Below, in pieces: positions 177-31,666 of a stretch of 32,285 bases of DNA. Position 1 is the stretch's first letter. Every line of letters begins with the position of its first letter. Both the position numbers and the translations under genes were made by a program. The DNA lies in the IMG/VR virus record IMGVR_UViG_3300043427_002445, positions 1-32,285 of that record; one strand, 5' to 3'. Origin of the DNA: a virus. The notes beneath the pieces are model-generated. The model did no database searches, was not told the origin of the DNA, and saw only the letters and a list, made by a program, of their open reading frames with translations.

Positions 177-191
177 GTTGATGAATACTAT

Positions 192-335
192 ATGGGACGA
201 AAGAAACTACACAGAACAAGAGAAGAGTTGCTTGAGCAGCAACGCCAGCGATCCAAGCGGTTCTATGAAAGAAATAAGAAGCGGCTCAATGATGAACGCA
301 TGGCACGCTATTGGAAGTCTAAATTGGATGTATAA
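192..335 (+). CDS. Small basic protein, MGRKK family, copy A
   Basis: A 47-residue ORF begins MGRKKLHRTREELLEQQ and contains RSKRFYERNKKRLN and RYWKSK. It is very basic and probably helical. Copy B at 2016-2171 shares 28 of the first 44 residues, with mostly conservative changes (K/R, E/D, Y/F) elsewhere, which argues that this frame is translated. An alternative frame across the same bases would extend the next gene N-terminally, but that peptide shows no such conservation. The last 8 bases overlap the start of the GIY-YIG gene. A nucleic-acid-binding role is plausible from the charge; function is unknown. Confidence 0.7.
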   Translation: MGRKKLHRTREELLEQQRQRSKRFYERNKKRLNDERMARYWKSKLDV

Positions 336-1068
336 ACTTTGCTACAATGGAGAGACTGGCGAATATCTTGGAGACAACAAGTCCCACGTAGTATATCTAT
401 GGACAGAAACAAGAGATGGGGTGGAGTATCCTTGTTATGTTGGACAGACATATCAAAAAATAAAAAGCAGATGTATTTCGCATATAAGAAAGCAAAAAGC
501 CTATTTGTTTCAACGAAAATTGAGGAAATATCCGAAAAGGTTCAAATGTTATATTTTAGAGCATAATACCGACATTGGTAGATTGAATGAACTGGAAAGA
601 TTTTATATAAAAATGTTTAGCACATTTGTAAATGACAACCCGCTAGGATACAATCTTACCGACGGAGGAAATAACGCAAAGCAATCTATAGAGTCCAGAG
701 CAAAACGCTCTAAAAAGTTGAAAGGACGAATTTTTTCCGAAGAAAGTAAGAAAAAAATGTCAGACTCGCAGAAAAAAGTAAGCAGAGATTGGGTTATTAC
801 AGATGAAACTAGAGAAAAATTATCCGCAGCAATGACTGGTAGGAAATGGACAGATGAAATGCGACGAAACATGTCAAATTCAATAAAAGGAAGGAAATTA
901 TCCCCAGAATGGATAAAAAATATGGCATTGTCTAGAATGGGCAAGAAGAGAAAGCCACATAGCGAAGAAACAAAGCGAAAATTATCTTTGGCCACGAAAA
1001 TACAATTCGGAACAGCCACAGAAAGTGAAATAAAAGAATATAAATTAGGAAAAAAGAACAATGAGTAA
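328..1068 (+). CDS. GIY-YIG homing endonuclease with NUMOD3 repeats
   Basis: Predicted 246-residue site-specific nuclease. From the chosen ATG, VVYLW (about 21-25) and CYVGQT (36-41) form the GIY-YIG core, followed by the arginine helix (KSRCISH), the glutamate helix (LNELERFYIKMF) and GYNLTDGGNN. Residues about 125-225 carry repeated NUMOD3-type DNA-binding motifs such as SEESKKKMSDSQKK and SDETREKL-like units ending in GRK. The frame is open back to 178, but 192-335 encodes the conserved MGRKK protein in another frame, so 328 is preferred as the start. The 3' end overlaps the glycosyltransferase by 8 bases. A free-standing, T4 Seg-like mobile gene is the simplest reading. Confidence 0.88.
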   Translation: MYKLCYNGETGEYLGDNKSHVVYLWTETRDGVEYPCYVGQTYQKIKSRCISHIRKQKAYLFQRKLRKYPKRFKCYILEHNTDIGRLNELERFYIKMFSTFVNDNPLGYNLTDGGNNAKQSIESRAKRSKKLKGRIFSEESKKKMSDSQKKVSRDWVITDETREKLSAAMTGRKWTDEMRRNMSNSIKGRKLSPEWIKNMALSRMGKKRKPHSEETKRKLSLATKIQFGTATESEIKEYKLGKKNNE

Positions 1069-1957
1069 ATTTACATGGGTCTTGAACACATATAAAAGTT
1101 TGCCTTACTTACGGCTCGCCGTGGAGTCCATAAGAGACAACTCTTTTTATAAAAACCAACCAATAATTGTATTTTGTGAGAATGACGAGGAAACCTACGA
1201 ATGGTTGAAACAGCAACCGGATATTGAAACTATATATGAAAGAAATGAAGTTCCAAGAGGAATTGGTGGAGGTGTAAATGTTGCGGTGTCAAAAGTAAAA
1301 ACTGACATATTTTCTTTGATACACTCGGACATGTATATATCAAAAAAATACGATGCTCCGCTGTATGATCTTGTTTCAAGCACAGAAAAACCGTTAGTTG
1401 CTTGTGCTTGGCGTCTGGAACCCAACATATTCAATAACGAAGATAGGGTTGGAACAATGTTTGCCCCAGTAAATGGTGGGTTTGGTGTATATCATCACGA
1501 TTTTCTAAAAGAGGAGTTTTTATATTGGGCCGATCATTTCGTACAATCTCCAAACCCATCTGGTTTTAGAAAAGTAGAAGGCGTATCATATATGATGCGA
1601 ACCAAGTATTTTATGAAAAATTCAGATGCTTGGCGTCCCACATCTTATGAAGACCACGACCAGAGTGTAAGAATGCAACTCGAAGGATACGACTTTGTGG
1701 TTACTTCAAAAGCACTTGTATGGCACTTTGGAGCACGCAGCAGTCATTTTCTTGGGCAACACGACAAACTACTGGGGACATCTGACCGCCAAAGGATAAC
1801 AGAGTCACGAAATTATCACCGATGGCTAAAAATTTGGGGGGAAAGTCCAAAATTTGACTCGTTGGGATTTATCCAAGTAACTGATAATATGCGTGAAATA
1901 TACAAGAAAAACAGAGATAAATATTTAGTCGGGGACTACGAAGAAATAATAAAATAA
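1061..1957 (+). CDS. Glycosyltransferase, GT-A fold (family 2-like)
   Basis: A 298-residue protein starts with a beta-strand/helix pattern (FTWVLNTYKSLPYLRLAVESI) typical of GT-A glycosyltransferases. HSDMY at 89-92 is in the place of the DxD metal and nucleotide-sugar motif, with Asp90 first. Later parts contain EGVSYMMRTKYF and SYEDHDQSVRMQLEGYD, like the acceptor side with an acidic catalytic residue. The N-terminal half is paralogous to the gene at 3154-4338, with the DMY triad at the same residue number. Expected role: sugar transfer to a phage surface protein, phage DNA or host glycan; the target is not visible. No signal peptide or membrane segment. Confidence 0.82.
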   Translation: MSKFTWVLNTYKSLPYLRLAVESIRDNSFYKNQPIIVFCENDEETYEWLKQQPDIETIYERNEVPRGIGGGVNVAVSKVKTDIFSLIHSDMYISKKYDAPLYDLVSSTEKPLVACAWRLEPNIFNNEDRVGTMFAPVNGGFGVYHHDFLKEEFLYWADHFVQSPNPSGFRKVEGVSYMMRTKYFMKNSDAWRPTSYEDHDQSVRMQLEGYDFVVTSKALVWHFGARSSHFLGQHDKLLGTSDRQRITESRNYHRWLKIWGESPKFDSLGFIQVTDNMREIYKKNRDKYLVGDYEEIIK

Positions 1958-1992
1958 AATAACTATTTTTATGACGTTTTATTCTATGACGT

Positions 1993-2002
1993 TATATTTA
2001 TA
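1993..2002 (+). promoter_or_regulatory. TATATTTATA motif, putative phage promoter
   Basis: The exact decamer TATATTTATA lies 13 bases upstream of the ATG at 2016. A GGAG ribosome-binding site at 2003-2006 follows directly, spaced correctly for 2016 and too close for the alternative ATG at 2008. Confidence 0.5.
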
Positions 2003-2015
2003 GGAGTATGAACAA

Positions 2016-2171
2016 ATGGGACGAAAAAAATTACATAAGACAAAAGACGAACTCCTTGAGCAGCAACGAGCAAGAGCCAAGCGATATTACGATAAGCATA
2101 AAGAGCGACTCAACGCAGCCGCTATGGAAAGATACTGGAGGAATAAAAATGTGGAGAAGAAGCTGTCCTGA
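2016..2171 (+). CDS. Small basic protein, MGRKK family, copy B
   Basis: A 51-residue ORF begins MGRKKLHKTKDELLEQQ and contains RAKRYYDKHKERLN and ERYWRNK, matching copy A at 192-335. GGAG nine bases upstream supports this start over the ATG at 2008. The 3' 23 bases overlap the next nuclease gene. Basic, probably helical, no cysteine; possibly a small DNA- or RNA-binding protein. Conservation between two sites next to unrelated nucleases suggests a partner, target or regulator of the mobile genes rather than a chance ORF. Confidence 0.72.
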   Translation: MGRKKLHKTKDELLEQQRARAKRYYDKHKERLNAAAMERYWRNKNVEKKLS

Positions 2172-2988
2172 ATGCAACAAGGATATATGGACAAAGAGTA
2201 AATGTTTGATAAAATCTAAATGTCTATGTCAAGAATGTGGATATAAATTAAATAGCCGACGAACCAAAGTTGTATATACCGAAGAAGAACTGTCGAGAAA
2301 ATGTCCGAAGTGTAGATGTCAAATATTTTATAAAGAAATAAAAGCAAAGCGTGTGGCTGACAGAAAAATGACGGTATGTAAGTCGTGCCAATCAAATCAA
2401 ACTTCCGAAGCATATAAGGGAAAATCGTTTGAAGAACGGCTTGGTAAGAACAAAGCAAAAATTGTAAAACGTAAAATATCACAGAGCAACAAGGGAAGGA
2501 TTTTTTCACAAAGCACGCGGCAACTGATAAGCGGACATAGAAAAGAATATTACAAGAAAAATCCTTTCGCTGCATCTGGGAAGAACAATCCGATGCACGG
2601 AATACACAGATACGGAAAAAATAATCCGAATTACAGACAAAATTGGTCGGAGGAACGCAAAGATGCAGCAAGAGTATCATCATCTATACCACACAGATAT
2701 AATAAAAATGCTTGTTTATATTTGAATAAATTGTCCGAAGAAATGGGGTGGAATTTACAGCACGCGGAAAACGGGGGAGAATGTTTGATAAAAAGATATT
2801 TTGTGGACGGATATGATAAGGAACGAAATATTGTAGTGGAGTATGATGAGAGACATCATTATAGTGGAGGAAAACTAAAACAAAAAGATATTGACAGAAT
2901 GAACAAAATCATACAGTATACTGGCTGTAGATTTTACAGATACAACGAGAGAACAAAAGAACTAAAATTATATGACAGAAGCTGCTAA
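2149..2988 (+). CDS. Homing endonuclease, Vsr/EDxHD-like with zinc ribbons and NUMOD3
   Basis: Predicted 279-residue nuclease. GGAGGA lies eight bases before this ATG and fixes the start; the open frame back to 2008 overlaps the MGRKK ORF. Two zinc-ribbon-like units come first (C6-C9 with C27-C30; C52-C55 with C77-C80). Residues about 107-160 hold NUMOD3-like segments (SQSNKGRIFS, GKNNPMHG). The C-terminus, about 210-268, reads YFVDGYDKERNIVVEYDERH, then a KQKDIDR helix and CRFYRYNE. This matches the Vsr-like EDxHD variant of the PD-(D/E)XK fold, with Asp220, Glu231, Asp233 and His236/237 as candidate catalytic residues. The gene sits between a glycosyltransferase and a small gene it overlaps by 17 bases. 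Confidence 0.82.
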   Translation: MWRRSCPECNKDIWTKSKCLIKSKCLCQECGYKLNSRRTKVVYTEEELSRKCPKCRCQIFYKEIKAKRVADRKMTVCKSCQSNQTSEAYKGKSFEERLGKNKAKIVKRKISQSNKGRIFSQSTRQLISGHRKEYYKKNPFAASGKNNPMHGIHRYGKNNPNYRQNWSEERKDAARVSSSIPHRYNKNACLYLNKLSEEMGWNLQHAENGGECLIKRYFVDGYDKERNIVVEYDERHHYSGGKLKQKDIDRMNKIIQYTGCRFYRYNERTKELKLYDRSC

Positions 2989-18348: not shown

Positions 18349-18717
18349 ATGAAACATACTATCCATATGGACGATGTGCATATAAAAAGTTATGCACATC
18401 TGGTATTACTGAACAAAGTATATTCCAGTATGGAGAGTAAGCGATGGAACAGAGCCCGAGCCGCTTTTCTCAAACAAGAAATAAAAAGCAAGGGCTGTTT
18501 GATTTGTTCTTATTGCGGTAAAACAAATCTAAAGATGAAATCTACCAAACGTGGAGAACAAGCCACGGTAGATCATTATATGCCCAAGTCAGGTGGAGGT
18601 GACCCATTTAGTCCATCTAACTTTGCTGTATGCTGTCACAGTTGCAATCAAAAGAAAGCAGCAATGAAGCCAGAAGATTTCATAAACAGCGATTATATAA
18701 AGAAGAAACGTTCTTGA
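18349..18717 (+). CDS. HNH endonuclease
   Basis: A 122-residue nuclease of the classical HNH type: CSYCGK (C53, C56), VDHYMPKSGGGDPFSPSN with His76 and Asn91, and CCHSCNQKK (C96, C99), forming the beta-beta-alpha metal site with a zinc knuckle. The basic N-terminus may contact DNA. It starts at the base after the previous stop, as expected for a free-standing homing gene inserted neatly between genes, though it could be a fixed phage nuclease. Its TGA lies inside a TTGACA element (18714-18719). Confidence 0.85.
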   Translation: MKHTIHMDDVHIKSYAHLVLLNKVYSSMESKRWNRARAAFLKQEIKSKGCLICSYCGKTNLKMKSTKRGEQATVDHYMPKSGGGDPFSPSNFAVCCHSCNQKKAAMKPEDFINSDYIKKKRS

Positions 18718-18734
18718 CAAAATTTGGGCATCTC

Positions 18735-19550
18735 CTATCGCATCTGTAAAGTACAGATCGCTTCCATTCTTGCCTTCATTGCTTCTTTTTCCGTTTTATA
18801 CCATCCGATATGTTTTTCTTTTATTTTAGTTTCGGATTGTAATAAAGTCGCTTTCCAATATCCATTTTTCTTATTGAAGCACACCCCTTTCATAGAAGAT
18901 GTTTTTTCTTTTTTTCCCTTGCTTTTTAGAAAGTGGAACTTATCCCATTTTCTTTTCATCCCTATCGGGTTGCTGTCATATCCTTTATATATATAATCCG
19001 AAAACTTGATTATATCATCGTATTTGTAAAAAACAACACAAGAAGAATCGCCACATTTTCTTTGGTATGTTCTTATGATATGTTTTATATCAAGATTGTT
19101 TAGCACCTCAACAAGCAAACACCAATCTTGGTCAATAGTTCCCCAGAAAGCAACCTCCTTCTTGCGTCTATTTTTGGTTGGAACTTGGATATGACCATCG
19201 CCATCAAAAAATCCTCGCCAGAATAGATGATGTTTTTCTTTTGATATTTTTGACAATATTATTTGTGGGGAATCTTTTGATTTAGTATTGAATCCGTTTT
19301 CAGAAAGAAACTTTTTATTGAAATCCGAATAAGAGAAGTAAACTATTCCTTGAAGGCTTCCCCAAGGCTTACCATTTTTCATTCGTTGGTGTTTTTTGAC
19401 CGTGAACCCGTGAGATTCTATCCATTTTTCCATATATACCATATCCTCATATTTACAGGATATTGCATTTGTTTTTCCCCACCCATCTGCCCAGTACCAT
19501 CCGAGAAAGTATATAAAAGTATCATTGTTTAGGTTGACAAAGTTTATCAT
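18735..19550 (-). CDS. LAGLIDADG homing endonuclease with AP2-like C-terminus
   Basis: A 271-residue protein on the minus strand. FLGWYWADG (15-23) and FWRGFFDGDG (110-119) are the two LAGLIDADG helices with Asp22 and Asp118 as metal-binding acids. The C-terminal part, about 220-265 (KGVCFNKKNGYWKATL, HIGWYKTEKEAMKAR), resembles the AP2 DNA-binding domain. The combination fits a free-standing homing endonuclease; LAGLIDADG enzymes are uncommon in phages. It lies convergent to the HNH gene, 17 bases apart, with a TATTTATA motif upstream on its own strand. Confidence 0.88.
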   Translation of the reverse strand: MINFVNLNNDTFIYFLGWYWADGWGKTNAISCKYEDMVYMEKWIESHGFTVKKHQRMKNGKPWGSLQGIVYFSYSDFNKKFLSENGFNTKSKDSPQIILSKISKEKHHLFWRGFFDGDGHIQVPTKNRRKKEVAFWGTIDQDWCLLVEVLNNLDIKHIIRTYQRKCGDSSCVVFYKYDDIIKFSDYIYKGYDSNPIGMKRKWDKFHFLKSKGKKEKTSSMKGVCFNKKNGYWKATLLQSETKIKEKHIGWYKTEKEAMKARMEAICTLQMR

Positions 19551-22157: not shown

Positions 22158-22352
22158 ATGAACGATGATAAGACACAAGCATTTGAGGATTTCAATAAAA
22201 AAGAACCTCGTACTCAATCATATTTTCGCGCAGCAGCGGTACAAAGTCTTGTTATAGAAGGCATTGAAATAAATAAAACAAACATAGATAACGAATTATA
22301 TGCTCGTTGGGTAAAGAATGGAAAAATTTGGTCAAAACCAAATAGAGCTTGA
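22158..22352 (+). CDS. Hypothetical 64-residue protein
   Basis: ORF from the ATG at 22158 (MNDDKTQAFEDFNKKEPR...), two bases after the previous stop; the in-frame TTG at 22152 is less likely. It is helical, with AAAVQSLVIEGIEINKTNID and WVKNGKIWSK. Its TGA is contained in the TTGACA element that precedes the restriction gene. Confidence 0.6.
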   Translation: MNDDKTQAFEDFNKKEPRTQSYFRAAAVQSLVIEGIEINKTNIDNELYARWVKNGKIWSKPNRA

Positions 22353-22360
22353 CATATACT
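22349..22360 (+). promoter_or_regulatory. TTGACA element before the restriction gene
   Basis: TTGACA at 22349-22354 includes the TGA stop of the upstream gene. TATACT follows at once (22355-22360). A clear -10 at the standard 17-base distance is missing, so promoter strength is uncertain. Confidence 0.4.
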
Positions 22361-22383
22361 AAAATTAATTATTGCGATCTAAT

Positions 22384-23049
22384 ATGAATATCATAAAAAA
22401 TGAAATTCAGAAAATTGTAAAAAAACGTTGCGACGAACTTTCGTGCAAACTTAAAAAAGACAATATGGTAGACAGGAGCTTTAATCCGTTTTTATACGGA
22501 TTTAGCGCACGCGATTCTTTCATCATGTCCCTCGAAAGGAGCTTGCTTTCCAAGTCTGGAAATACGATGGAAGACATTATCTCGGACATACAGAAAATGG
22601 TGAATCCCGAATTAGAATTCATAAACAGAATACGCCCGATAGAAACATCCAAACTTGGCAAGAAGATGAATAAAAAAGATGTAGATAATTGTTTCAAGGA
22701 CGATGCCAGCAAGAGTATTTATATATTTGAAATAAAAACTGGGGGGAAGCTTGACAAAAATAAATCAAAAAAAGACATAGAAGCATTACAAGAAAAAACA
22801 AAAATACTAAAAGAAAAGTATCCCGATTTCCAAATATTTCCATCTGCTTGTGTATTATTTACAGACTCAAAGGAAACTGGTCTTGGTGGTTTGAAGAGCG
22901 AATGTAAAAAATACAATATTCCACTTTACATTGGTAAAGCTGCATTTCGCGGGTTGAAACTTTCGGATGATCATTTCGATGCAATGATGGAAGGCATAAA
23001 GAAATGGTCCGTTGAATATAATAGCGACGTAATATCCAATATCTGTTGA
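22384..23049 (+). CDS. Putative type II restriction endonuclease
   Basis: A 221-residue protein from the ATG at 22384; the in-frame TTG at 22372 is less likely. DDASKSIYIFEIKTGGKLDK (106-125) has the D...ExK spacing of a PD-(D/E)XK nuclease, with Asp106 or Asp107, Glu116 and Lys118. The N-terminal FNPFLYGFSARDSFIMSLER and SGNTMEDIISDIQK resemble the TdeIII/MjaII restriction enzyme family from memory, not a search. It is followed after 31 bases by an adenine methyltransferase, the usual type II order. The gene is AT-rich compared with its neighbours, consistent with transfer. Its specificity is unknown. Confidence 0.65.
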   Translation: MNIIKNEIQKIVKKRCDELSCKLKKDNMVDRSFNPFLYGFSARDSFIMSLERSLLSKSGNTMEDIISDIQKMVNPELEFINRIRPIETSKLGKKMNKKDVDNCFKDDASKSIYIFEIKTGGKLDKNKSKKDIEALQEKTKILKEKYPDFQIFPSACVLFTDSKETGLGGLKSECKKYNIPLYIGKAAFRGLKLSDDHFDAMMEGIKKWSVEYNSDVISNIC

Positions 23050-23074
23050 CATCGGGCTAACAAACTATTAACGT
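23046..23074 (+). promoter_or_regulatory. TTGACA promoter before the methyltransferase
   Basis: TTGACA at 23046-23051 contains the TGA stop of the restriction gene. Seventeen bases later is TAACGT, a weak -10. A separate methyltransferase promoter would let protection be set apart from restriction. Confidence 0.4.
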
Positions 23075-23080
23075 AATTAA

Positions 23081-23953
23081 ATGACTAAAAATTTAAAACC
23101 AATGTTTAAGTGGGCAGGTGCAAAACACAGCGAAATACCAGATTTCTGTAATTTTTTTCCATCCAAATTTGAAAATTTTATAGAACCTTTTGTTGGTGGA
23201 GGCTCTGTTTTTTTCCATTTGAATAGACCAAATTCAACCATATGCGATAATAATCCGGAGCTTATAAATTTTTACAAACAAATTTCTATCGGAAATTCCA
23301 AAGATATAGTAGATATTTGCAACTCGTTCGGCCTAAAAGAAGAAACTTATTATAAAATAAGAGATGAATACATTCCAAAAAATGACATAGAACGAGCCTG
23401 TAAATATTTTTATATTTTAAAAACATGTTACAGAGGAATGACTCGTTACAATAAAAAAGGAAAGTTCAATATTCCGTGGGGCAGATACAAGAGTGTTAAT
23501 TTTGAGGAGATATTGTCTCCCGACCACATTGATCTATTAAAAAATACACGCATTTTACATGGAAACTATTTGGAAGCCATGAATTATGCTACCAAAAACA
23601 GTTTTGTATTTTTTGATCCACCGTATGACTCGGAATTTAAAAATTATTATTTGCCGTTTGGAAAAGAAGAACACACAAAGCTGGCGGATTATTTTAAAAA
23701 AACGGAATTCTATTCTATGATGGTTATTGCAAAAACGGATTTCATTTTTTCCTTATATGCCGATAACATAATTCACGAATATGATAAATCTTATCGATTT
23801 AGACTTACTAAAGATCGAGTAAAAAAAGATCAACTTGAAGTTAAACATCTTGTAATCGTAAACGACAAACTTAAGCAGAATTTGTTGCAAAGCGCAGACG
23901 ATGTCGAAACTAGGTCAAATGCCTCAAGTCTTGAACAACAATTTTTTGTATAA
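23081..23953 (+). CDS. D12-class N6-adenine DNA methyltransferase (Dam-like)
   Basis: A 290-residue enzyme that would methylate adenine using S-adenosylmethionine. FKWAGAK (9-15) is motif X, IEPFVGGGS (34-42) is motif I, FNIPWGRY (129-136) is the segment typical of Dam/DpnM relatives, and DPPY (179-182) is catalytic motif IV. The tail about 270-290 is polar (DDVETRSNASSLEQQ). The site could be GATC or a related one. Many GATC sites remain in this window, so GATC is not avoided. It can protect phage DNA alone or work with the adjacent nuclease. Confidence 0.92.
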   Translation: MTKNLKPMFKWAGAKHSEIPDFCNFFPSKFENFIEPFVGGGSVFFHLNRPNSTICDNNPELINFYKQISIGNSKDIVDICNSFGLKEETYYKIRDEYIPKNDIERACKYFYILKTCYRGMTRYNKKGKFNIPWGRYKSVNFEEILSPDHIDLLKNTRILHGNYLEAMNYATKNSFVFFDPPYDSEFKNYYLPFGKEEHTKLADYFKKTEFYSMMVIAKTDFIFSLYADNIIHEYDKSYRFRLTKDRVKKDQLEVKHLVIVNDKLKQNLLQSADDVETRSNASSLEQQFFV

Positions 23954-31111: not shown

Positions 31112-31666
31112 ATGAGCACACTAAGAGAACTTACAGCAGAAAGTCATACTAAAGCAGAGAATACAGTATTTATGCGTTTGCTTATGGCAAAGGCACTTAC
31201 TCCATATGAATATATGGATTATCTGACTCAGTTTACGTTGGTATATGATGGGCTTGAATATGCTGCCAATAAGTTTGGCATACTACAAGAGTTTGATGGC
31301 ATTCAGCGTTCAGATAAAATCAAGGCAGACCTTGAAGAAGCAAATACTGTGAATGGTAAGAGATGCCTTATTCGCCTATGTACTACACTATATTACAACT
31401 ATCTTATCAATCTTGATGAAAAGGAAAAGGTTGCTGCTCATTTTTATGTAAGATTTGCTGGTGATATGTTTGGCGGTCAAATGCTAAAGAGCCTCGTGCC
31501 AAGCACAGGCAGAATGTATGATTTTGAGCATAATCTGCCTGCACTGCGTATGAAGATGCGTGAGTTTGCTAAACCCAACTTGGCAGAAGAAGCAAACAAG
31601 GCATTTGGCTATACCATTGACATTGTTGATGAAATATGCGGAGTCAAACGTGATCTTTGGTTATAA
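31112..31666 (+). CDS. ho1: Heme oxygenase
   Basis: A 184-residue enzyme that opens heme to biliverdin, carbon monoxide and iron, using reductant such as ferredoxin. LRELTAESHTKAEN gives the proximal heme ligand His12 in the family pattern TxxxHxxAE. FYVRFAGDMFGGQ (111-123) is the distal helix with the conserved GDxxGGQ. It is shorter than cyanobacterial heme oxygenase (about 240 residues). Its TAA shares one base with the ATG of the bilin reductase, so the two are translated together and biliverdin can pass directly to the next enzyme. Confidence 0.93.
   Translation: MSTLRELTAESHTKAENTVFMRLLMAKALTPYEYMDYLTQFTLVYDGLEYAANKFGILQEFDGIQRSDKIKADLEEANTVNGKRCLIRLCTTLYYNYLINLDEKEKVAAHFYVRFAGDMFGGQMLKSLVPSTGRMYDFEHNLPALRMKMREFAKPNLAEEANKAFGYTIDIVDEICGVKRDLWL

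Follow-up and report, generated by a model that had tools for sequence, protein, structure and literature searches.

A restriction-modification (R-M) pair is normally a bacterial weapon against viruses. The question raised by this locus is whether a virus itself carries such a pair. The window is the whole stretch of DNA analysed, the 32,285-base IMG/VR record IMGVR_UViG_3300043427_002445, whose viral status is taken from the IMG/VR listing. Matches to phage families were found in it for a helicase, a dUTPase, a ligase and homing-type genes; neither a capsid gene nor a terminase gene was detected within the 32,285 bases. The preferred reading, given a probability of about 0.8, is a phage-borne type II R-M cassette: the methylase would mark phage DNA and the nuclease would cut unmarked DNA. 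It is supported by the gene identities (restriction-enzyme profiles, PD-(D/E)XK model), by intact catalytic residues and by a linkage conserved in about 20 phages; the initial annotation, which had proposed a phage-carried type II R-M candidate, is thereby largely upheld.

The first gene, a putative restriction endonuclease gene of the PD-(D/E)XK fold (22384..23049, + strand), has an ATG start and encodes 221 aa; an in-frame TTG at 22372 would give 225 aa. The initial annotation had recognized a PD-(D/E)XK-type protein from FEIK and an upstream Asp. FEIK corresponds to residues 115-118 and the Asp to D101. The codon of D101, the 'PD' aspartate of the catalytic motif, lies at 22684..22686 (+), and E116-I-K118, the (D/E)XK part of the motif, is encoded at 22729..22737 (+). 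The motif is no chance match, since D101, E116 and K118 do not vary among 21 phage homologues, and the assignment was borne out. Also invariant across the 21 nuclease sequences are G59, D124 and K127. E63 is almost so: this core-helix Glu (codon 22570..22572, +; 21-sequence alignment) may be a second-metal ligand, by analogy with the core-helix Glu E123 of AvaII (PMC7337904). Cellular HinfI- and TdeIII-like relatives, when aligned, retain D101, E116, K118 and D124.

A profile search of 22384-23049 against restriction enzyme families matched the window nuclease, weakly yet significantly, to HpyAIV (NF045832; 29 bits, E=6.9e-7, the curated cut-off of 160 bits not being reached) and to the PADLOC REase_II model (E=1e-7). 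These scores point to a distant relative of HpyAIV, placed outside the NF045832 equivalog. Among the 21 phage homologues, five match the HinfI model (best 1e-7) and five the HpyAIV model; five PADLOC type II REase models gave 15 member matches in total (E<=0.01, best 9.5e-13). The homologue carried by the 61-kb contig L005 matches RE_TdeIII (PF09520) with 24.9 bits (E=1.9e-5), below the gathering cut-off of 27.2 bits; the window nuclease had no match to this family in the Pfam search. No LAGLIDADG, HNH or GIY-YIG domain was matched in the 221-aa protein by profile searches, which says nothing against homing enzymes of the PD-(D/E)XK type. Used as sole query, the window nuclease retrieved no homologue among phages, plasmids, viral contigs and genome contigs. 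PDB sequence searches gave chance-like matches only.

The AlphaFold model of the nuclease, obtained from the 21-member alignment, has a pLDDT of 86.4 and a pTM of 0.81. Its best VIA-align match is EcoO109I (Z 10.1, 204 of 221 residues aligned); the top two rows are both EcoO109I entries (Z 10.1 and 9.3, over 200 residues). PspGI, McrBC, EndoMS, PfoI and Bse634I, all PD-(D/E)XK enzymes, come after them in the list. Since Z values below about 8 arise often by chance, EcoO109I alone stands out, and modestly. Foldseek by itself was weak on the model (EndoMS top, E=2.9e-4; BstEII, 0.011). The nuclease is predicted from this model to have a restriction-type fold with intact catalytic residues. Similarity to nucleases (restriction-enzyme profile matches) and a PD-(D/E)XK core (confident model) were both found.

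The second gene (23081..23953, +, 290 aa) encodes a DNA adenine-N6 methyltransferase of the Dam family. The spacing between the two genes is exactly 31 bases, on the same strand. The ORF positions and the match to TIGR00571 dam (188.9 bits, over the curated cut-off of 114.85) confirm the Dam-like adenine methyltransferase that had been described 31 bases downstream of the nuclease. PF02086 matches with E=4.5e-38, with D12-class catalytic motifs. The nearest solved structure by sequence is M.DpnII (E=2.4e-31). According to the translation, SAM-binding motif I (EPFVGGG) is encoded at 23183..23203 (+) and catalytic motif IV (DPPY) at 23615..23626 (+); in the methyltransferase alignment the former is conserved and the latter invariant. 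The residues of E. coli Dam that contact GATC are K9, Y119, L122, R124 and P134 (PMC10073500). They align with K10, Y117, M120, R122 and P132 of the window methyltransferase, M120 replacing L122. GATC is the first guess for its target because the base-contact positions of Dam are kept; it would thus be a GATC methyltransferase.

The block formed by the two genes is AT-rich, as initially described: its GC content is 32.2% vs 38.1% in the remainder of the window, and a value this low is found in just 0.3% of equal-sized windows. TTGACA elements overlapping the preceding stop codons had also been pointed out. Both overlaps are real: one box (22349..22354, +) covers the TGA stop of the upstream gene and the other (23046..23051, +) that of the nuclease gene. 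A promoter role is not supported, however. The window shows no enrichment of TTGACA (35 occurrences vs 27.8 +/- 5.3 expected), and no promoter-like -35/-10 pair was found at either box by consensus scan. The overlap therefore carries little weight, and the boxes were dropped as promoters. Another intergenic box, TTGACTTTCTATAAAAAG, is repeated shortly 5' of start codons (window 16402, 21145, 24000, 24276, 24545 and 25033, +). Its pattern, with at most 3 mismatches, was found 11 times in the window vs 3.1 +/- 2.0 expected; these boxes probably form a family of phage promoters. None is present 5' of the nuclease gene or of the methyltransferase gene. Several homing-type nuclease genes are found at window 178-2988 and 18349-19550 (GIY-YIG/NUMOD-like, by eye; HNH; LAGLIDADG), and the modules at 178-2988 are present again in the L005 contig. 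A heme-oxygenase-like gene was recognized by eye from its translation (window 31112-31666, +); the sole PHROGs match of its product is a family without assigned function (E=7e-8).

Homologues were reached through the methyltransferase: viral contigs were searched with it, then the neighbouring ORFs. In L004 and L005, the methyltransferase is 69% identical to that of the window and the upstream gene encodes the nuclease (46.8% identical in L005). A profile from 8 seed nucleases was run on 4,484 ORFs from 165 loci. It matched in 26 of the 85 viral loci (21 distinct sequences, about 20 distinct phages). All 26 matches are encoded on the methyltransferase strand, beside the methyltransferase or within 350 bp of it. 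The nuclease gene precedes the methyltransferase gene in 23 loci and follows it in 3; the two frames overlap in most loci. The 8 seeds were picked by their position beside the methyltransferase, so these first cases cannot count as independent support for the linkage; the remaining matches were not so picked. In the 80 cellular loci, which were chosen by their methyltransferase, no such nuclease was found beside it. In the methyltransferase tree, nuclease-linked rows concentrate in a single, largely viral group (23 of its 34 rows; support 93/78), and the nuclease label must have been gained or lost at least five times. The phage nuclease profile also matched, mostly weakly, in 13 of 386 cellular genomes of the phylum sample around the cyanobacterium of locus L085, and in 2 of 395 and 0 of 398 genomes of two further phylum samples; the matches being mostly weak, cellular relatives exist but are distant. 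Several features of a type II R-M system were thus found: nuclease and methyltransferase are encoded by separate genes that stay side by side (26 viral loci), and the methyltransferase has the SAM-binding EPFVGGG and the catalytic DPPY.

Two carriers, additional to the 26 loci, are isolated T4-like cyanophages (Kyanoviridae myoviruses): S-CAM8 (NC_021530; nuclease 41459-42022) and S-WAM2 (NC_031935; nuclease 44280-44846). In both, the nuclease gene is located directly 5' of a DNA methyltransferase gene and its product is annotated as 'hypothetical protein'. A T4-type gp23 capsid gene is found on five of the contigs. From established biology, the term 'lytic' of the initial annotation applies to the T4-like cyanophage isolates with the pair; the phage behind the window, a fragment in which no virion gene was found, may be lytic too. 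Among the hits listed in literature searches made mostly outside subscription journals, none reported the nuclease-methyltransferase pair in cyanophages. A more specific version of the reading can be proposed tentatively, at somewhat less than even odds: an R-M clade specific to a virus lineage and maintained in virulent T4-like phages including cultured cyanophages, in which a HinfI/EcoO109I-like nuclease and its Dam-type methyltransferase partner would serve as a weapon against competitors or host, self-protection being epigenetic via virion DNA.

In the R-M cassette, the methyltransferase would methylate the phage's own DNA. Virion DNA would then be already methylated, hence protected on entry into the next cell; a phage would be well placed for R-M because its virion DNA arrives pre-marked. 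The nuclease, a member of the broad HinfI/HpyAIV/TdeIII/EcoO109I-like group, would cut unmarked DNA: co-infecting phages, plasmids or the host chromosome. We infer that the nuclease is active as an enzyme, that the pair shares one recognition site and that host or competitor DNA is attacked. One version within this reading makes the host chromosome the main target, its degradation recycling nucleotides rather than serving as a weapon of competition. Host-DNA degradation for nucleotide recycling has been proposed for Chlorella viruses and host DNA degradation is common in virulent T4-like phages; nucleotide-metabolism genes, such as the dUTPase gene, are found in the window. This version is nevertheless rather doubtful: it requires a host unmethylated at the site, and the data fit an attack on competitors equally. 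For the Mom-nuclease fusions of jumbo phages, a phage modification and a fused nuclease have been proposed to act against the host or superinfecting phages (PMC7824862).

It is very unlikely that the methyltransferase alone matters, as an anti-restriction or regulatory Dam, and that the nuclease is an inactive or unrelated passenger. Phage methyltransferases are usually orphan (PMC4081073, PMC10711547), and the nuclease was not detected in some methyltransferase relatives, e.g. L017 and L118-L130, as this explanation would have it. The methyltransferase studied here does not belong to the orphan class: its nuclease neighbour is conserved, and the adjacency is seen again in many lineages. A decaying passenger would not preserve the catalytic D, E and K, which are invariant in 21 nucleases, 19 of them merely 12-22% identical to the window protein.

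Apart from the pair itself, homing-endonuclease-like modules are all that the window shares with the L005 contig, so horizontal movement of the pair would fit. PD-(D/E)XK homing enzymes are known, and both the homing-type genes of the window (HNH, LAGLIDADG, GIY-YIG) and the different context of the cassette in L005 could evoke a homing or mobile enzyme, no restriction enzyme, by which the nuclease and methyltransferase genes are carried from phage to phage. This is the least probable explanation, a highly improbable one, as the profile and fold matches go to type II restriction enzymes and the nuclease is always accompanied by a base methyltransferase, for which a homing enzyme has no use. 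Partners of the type II pair may be swapped: this is suggested by L101, inside the viral group, where the ORF upstream of the methyltransferase (L101:4001-4831) is a different one (L101:3341-3979) that shows a PD-(D/E)XK-like pattern, VDIYVETKNEILLIDPKG. The L101 methyltransferase, which belongs to the same clade, has DQPY in motif IV in place of DPPY. Among the nearest cellular methyltransferase relatives, L018, L019, L020 and L022 have a different gene of ~560 aa downstream (two ORFs in L019), which we take to resemble AlwI-type restriction enzymes.

Kinship with HinfI and HpyAIV suggests GANTC or a similar sequence as the site of the nuclease, at odds with the GATC suggested by the methyltransferase residues; a methylase reading GATC alone would leave GANTC unprotected. 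In the pooled loci, none of 32 palindromes is more depleted than GANTC (observed/expected 0.61). The picture is mixed when each phage is represented by more DNA: GANTC is strongly depleted (0.20-0.44) in G002 (0.24), G005, G007, G011, L114 and S-WAM2 (0.29); the depletion is absent in the carriers G003, G004 and G018 (1.03-1.37). The ratio is 1.06-1.22 in five further isolated cyanophages where the search did not detect the nuclease. For GANTC depletion, the Mann-Whitney p (0.003) includes no correction for kinship or for the number of motifs (32), and two other motifs, CCNGG and TCGA, perform equally in this comparison; the depletion, seen in part of the carriers, is no more than a hint of GANTC as the site. 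In the window, GATC (0.47) and GANTC (0.72) are not distinct from other depleted palindromes.

Known systems resemble either gene in part. The HinfI and HpyAIV R-M systems (GANTC) are like the phage nuclease at profile level, HpyAIV with a score far under the curated cut-off. In the HinfI-like cellular loci found with the phage profile, a HinfI-like nuclease adjoins a DPPY adenine methyltransferase, pair-like as in the phages. The adjacent methyltransferases in these cellular loci are mostly of another, CcrM-like type, whereas the phage partner is Dam-type (D12). EcoO109I (RGGNCCY), the top fold match, aligns over nearly the full length of the phage nuclease, with 13% identity; PDB searches did not detect it as a sequence match. 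AvaII (GGWCC), a relative of EcoO109I, has the same active-site layout: core-helix Glu, Asp and ExK (PMC7337904). The phage nuclease is unlikely to share the site of EcoO109I or AvaII. The phage methyltransferase is a clear member of the family of M.DpnII and E. coli Dam (GATC), with the GATC-contact positions kept, whereas the nuclease did not match the family of the DpnII restriction enzyme in Pfam searches. In the bacterial loci L266-L268, a Dam-like methyltransferase and a TdeIII/HpyAIV-like nuclease are encoded on one strand at one locus, as in the phage pair, but with an extra HNH gene between them and at low identity (methyltransferase ~31-34%, C-terminal part; nuclease ~26% over 72 residues). 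These loci may be a cellular equivalent of what the phages carry. Chlorella viruses also encode type II restriction enzymes with their methyltransferases, such as CviAII (PMC4081073), but infect eukaryotic algae, unlike the phages described here.

In a large survey of gut phages, the endonuclease was missing from most phage type II systems (PMC10711547). Here, complete-looking pairs are found in about 20 phages, with nucleases so divergent that they have stayed 'hypothetical protein'. Judged by their sequences, they form a distant branch of type II restriction enzymes that is concentrated in phages and has methyltransferases of the Dam type as partners. As the carriers S-CAM8 and S-WAM2 are isolates, offensive restriction by virulent phages is directly testable. 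Phage 'orphan' methyltransferases may have nuclease partners that have so far been overlooked.
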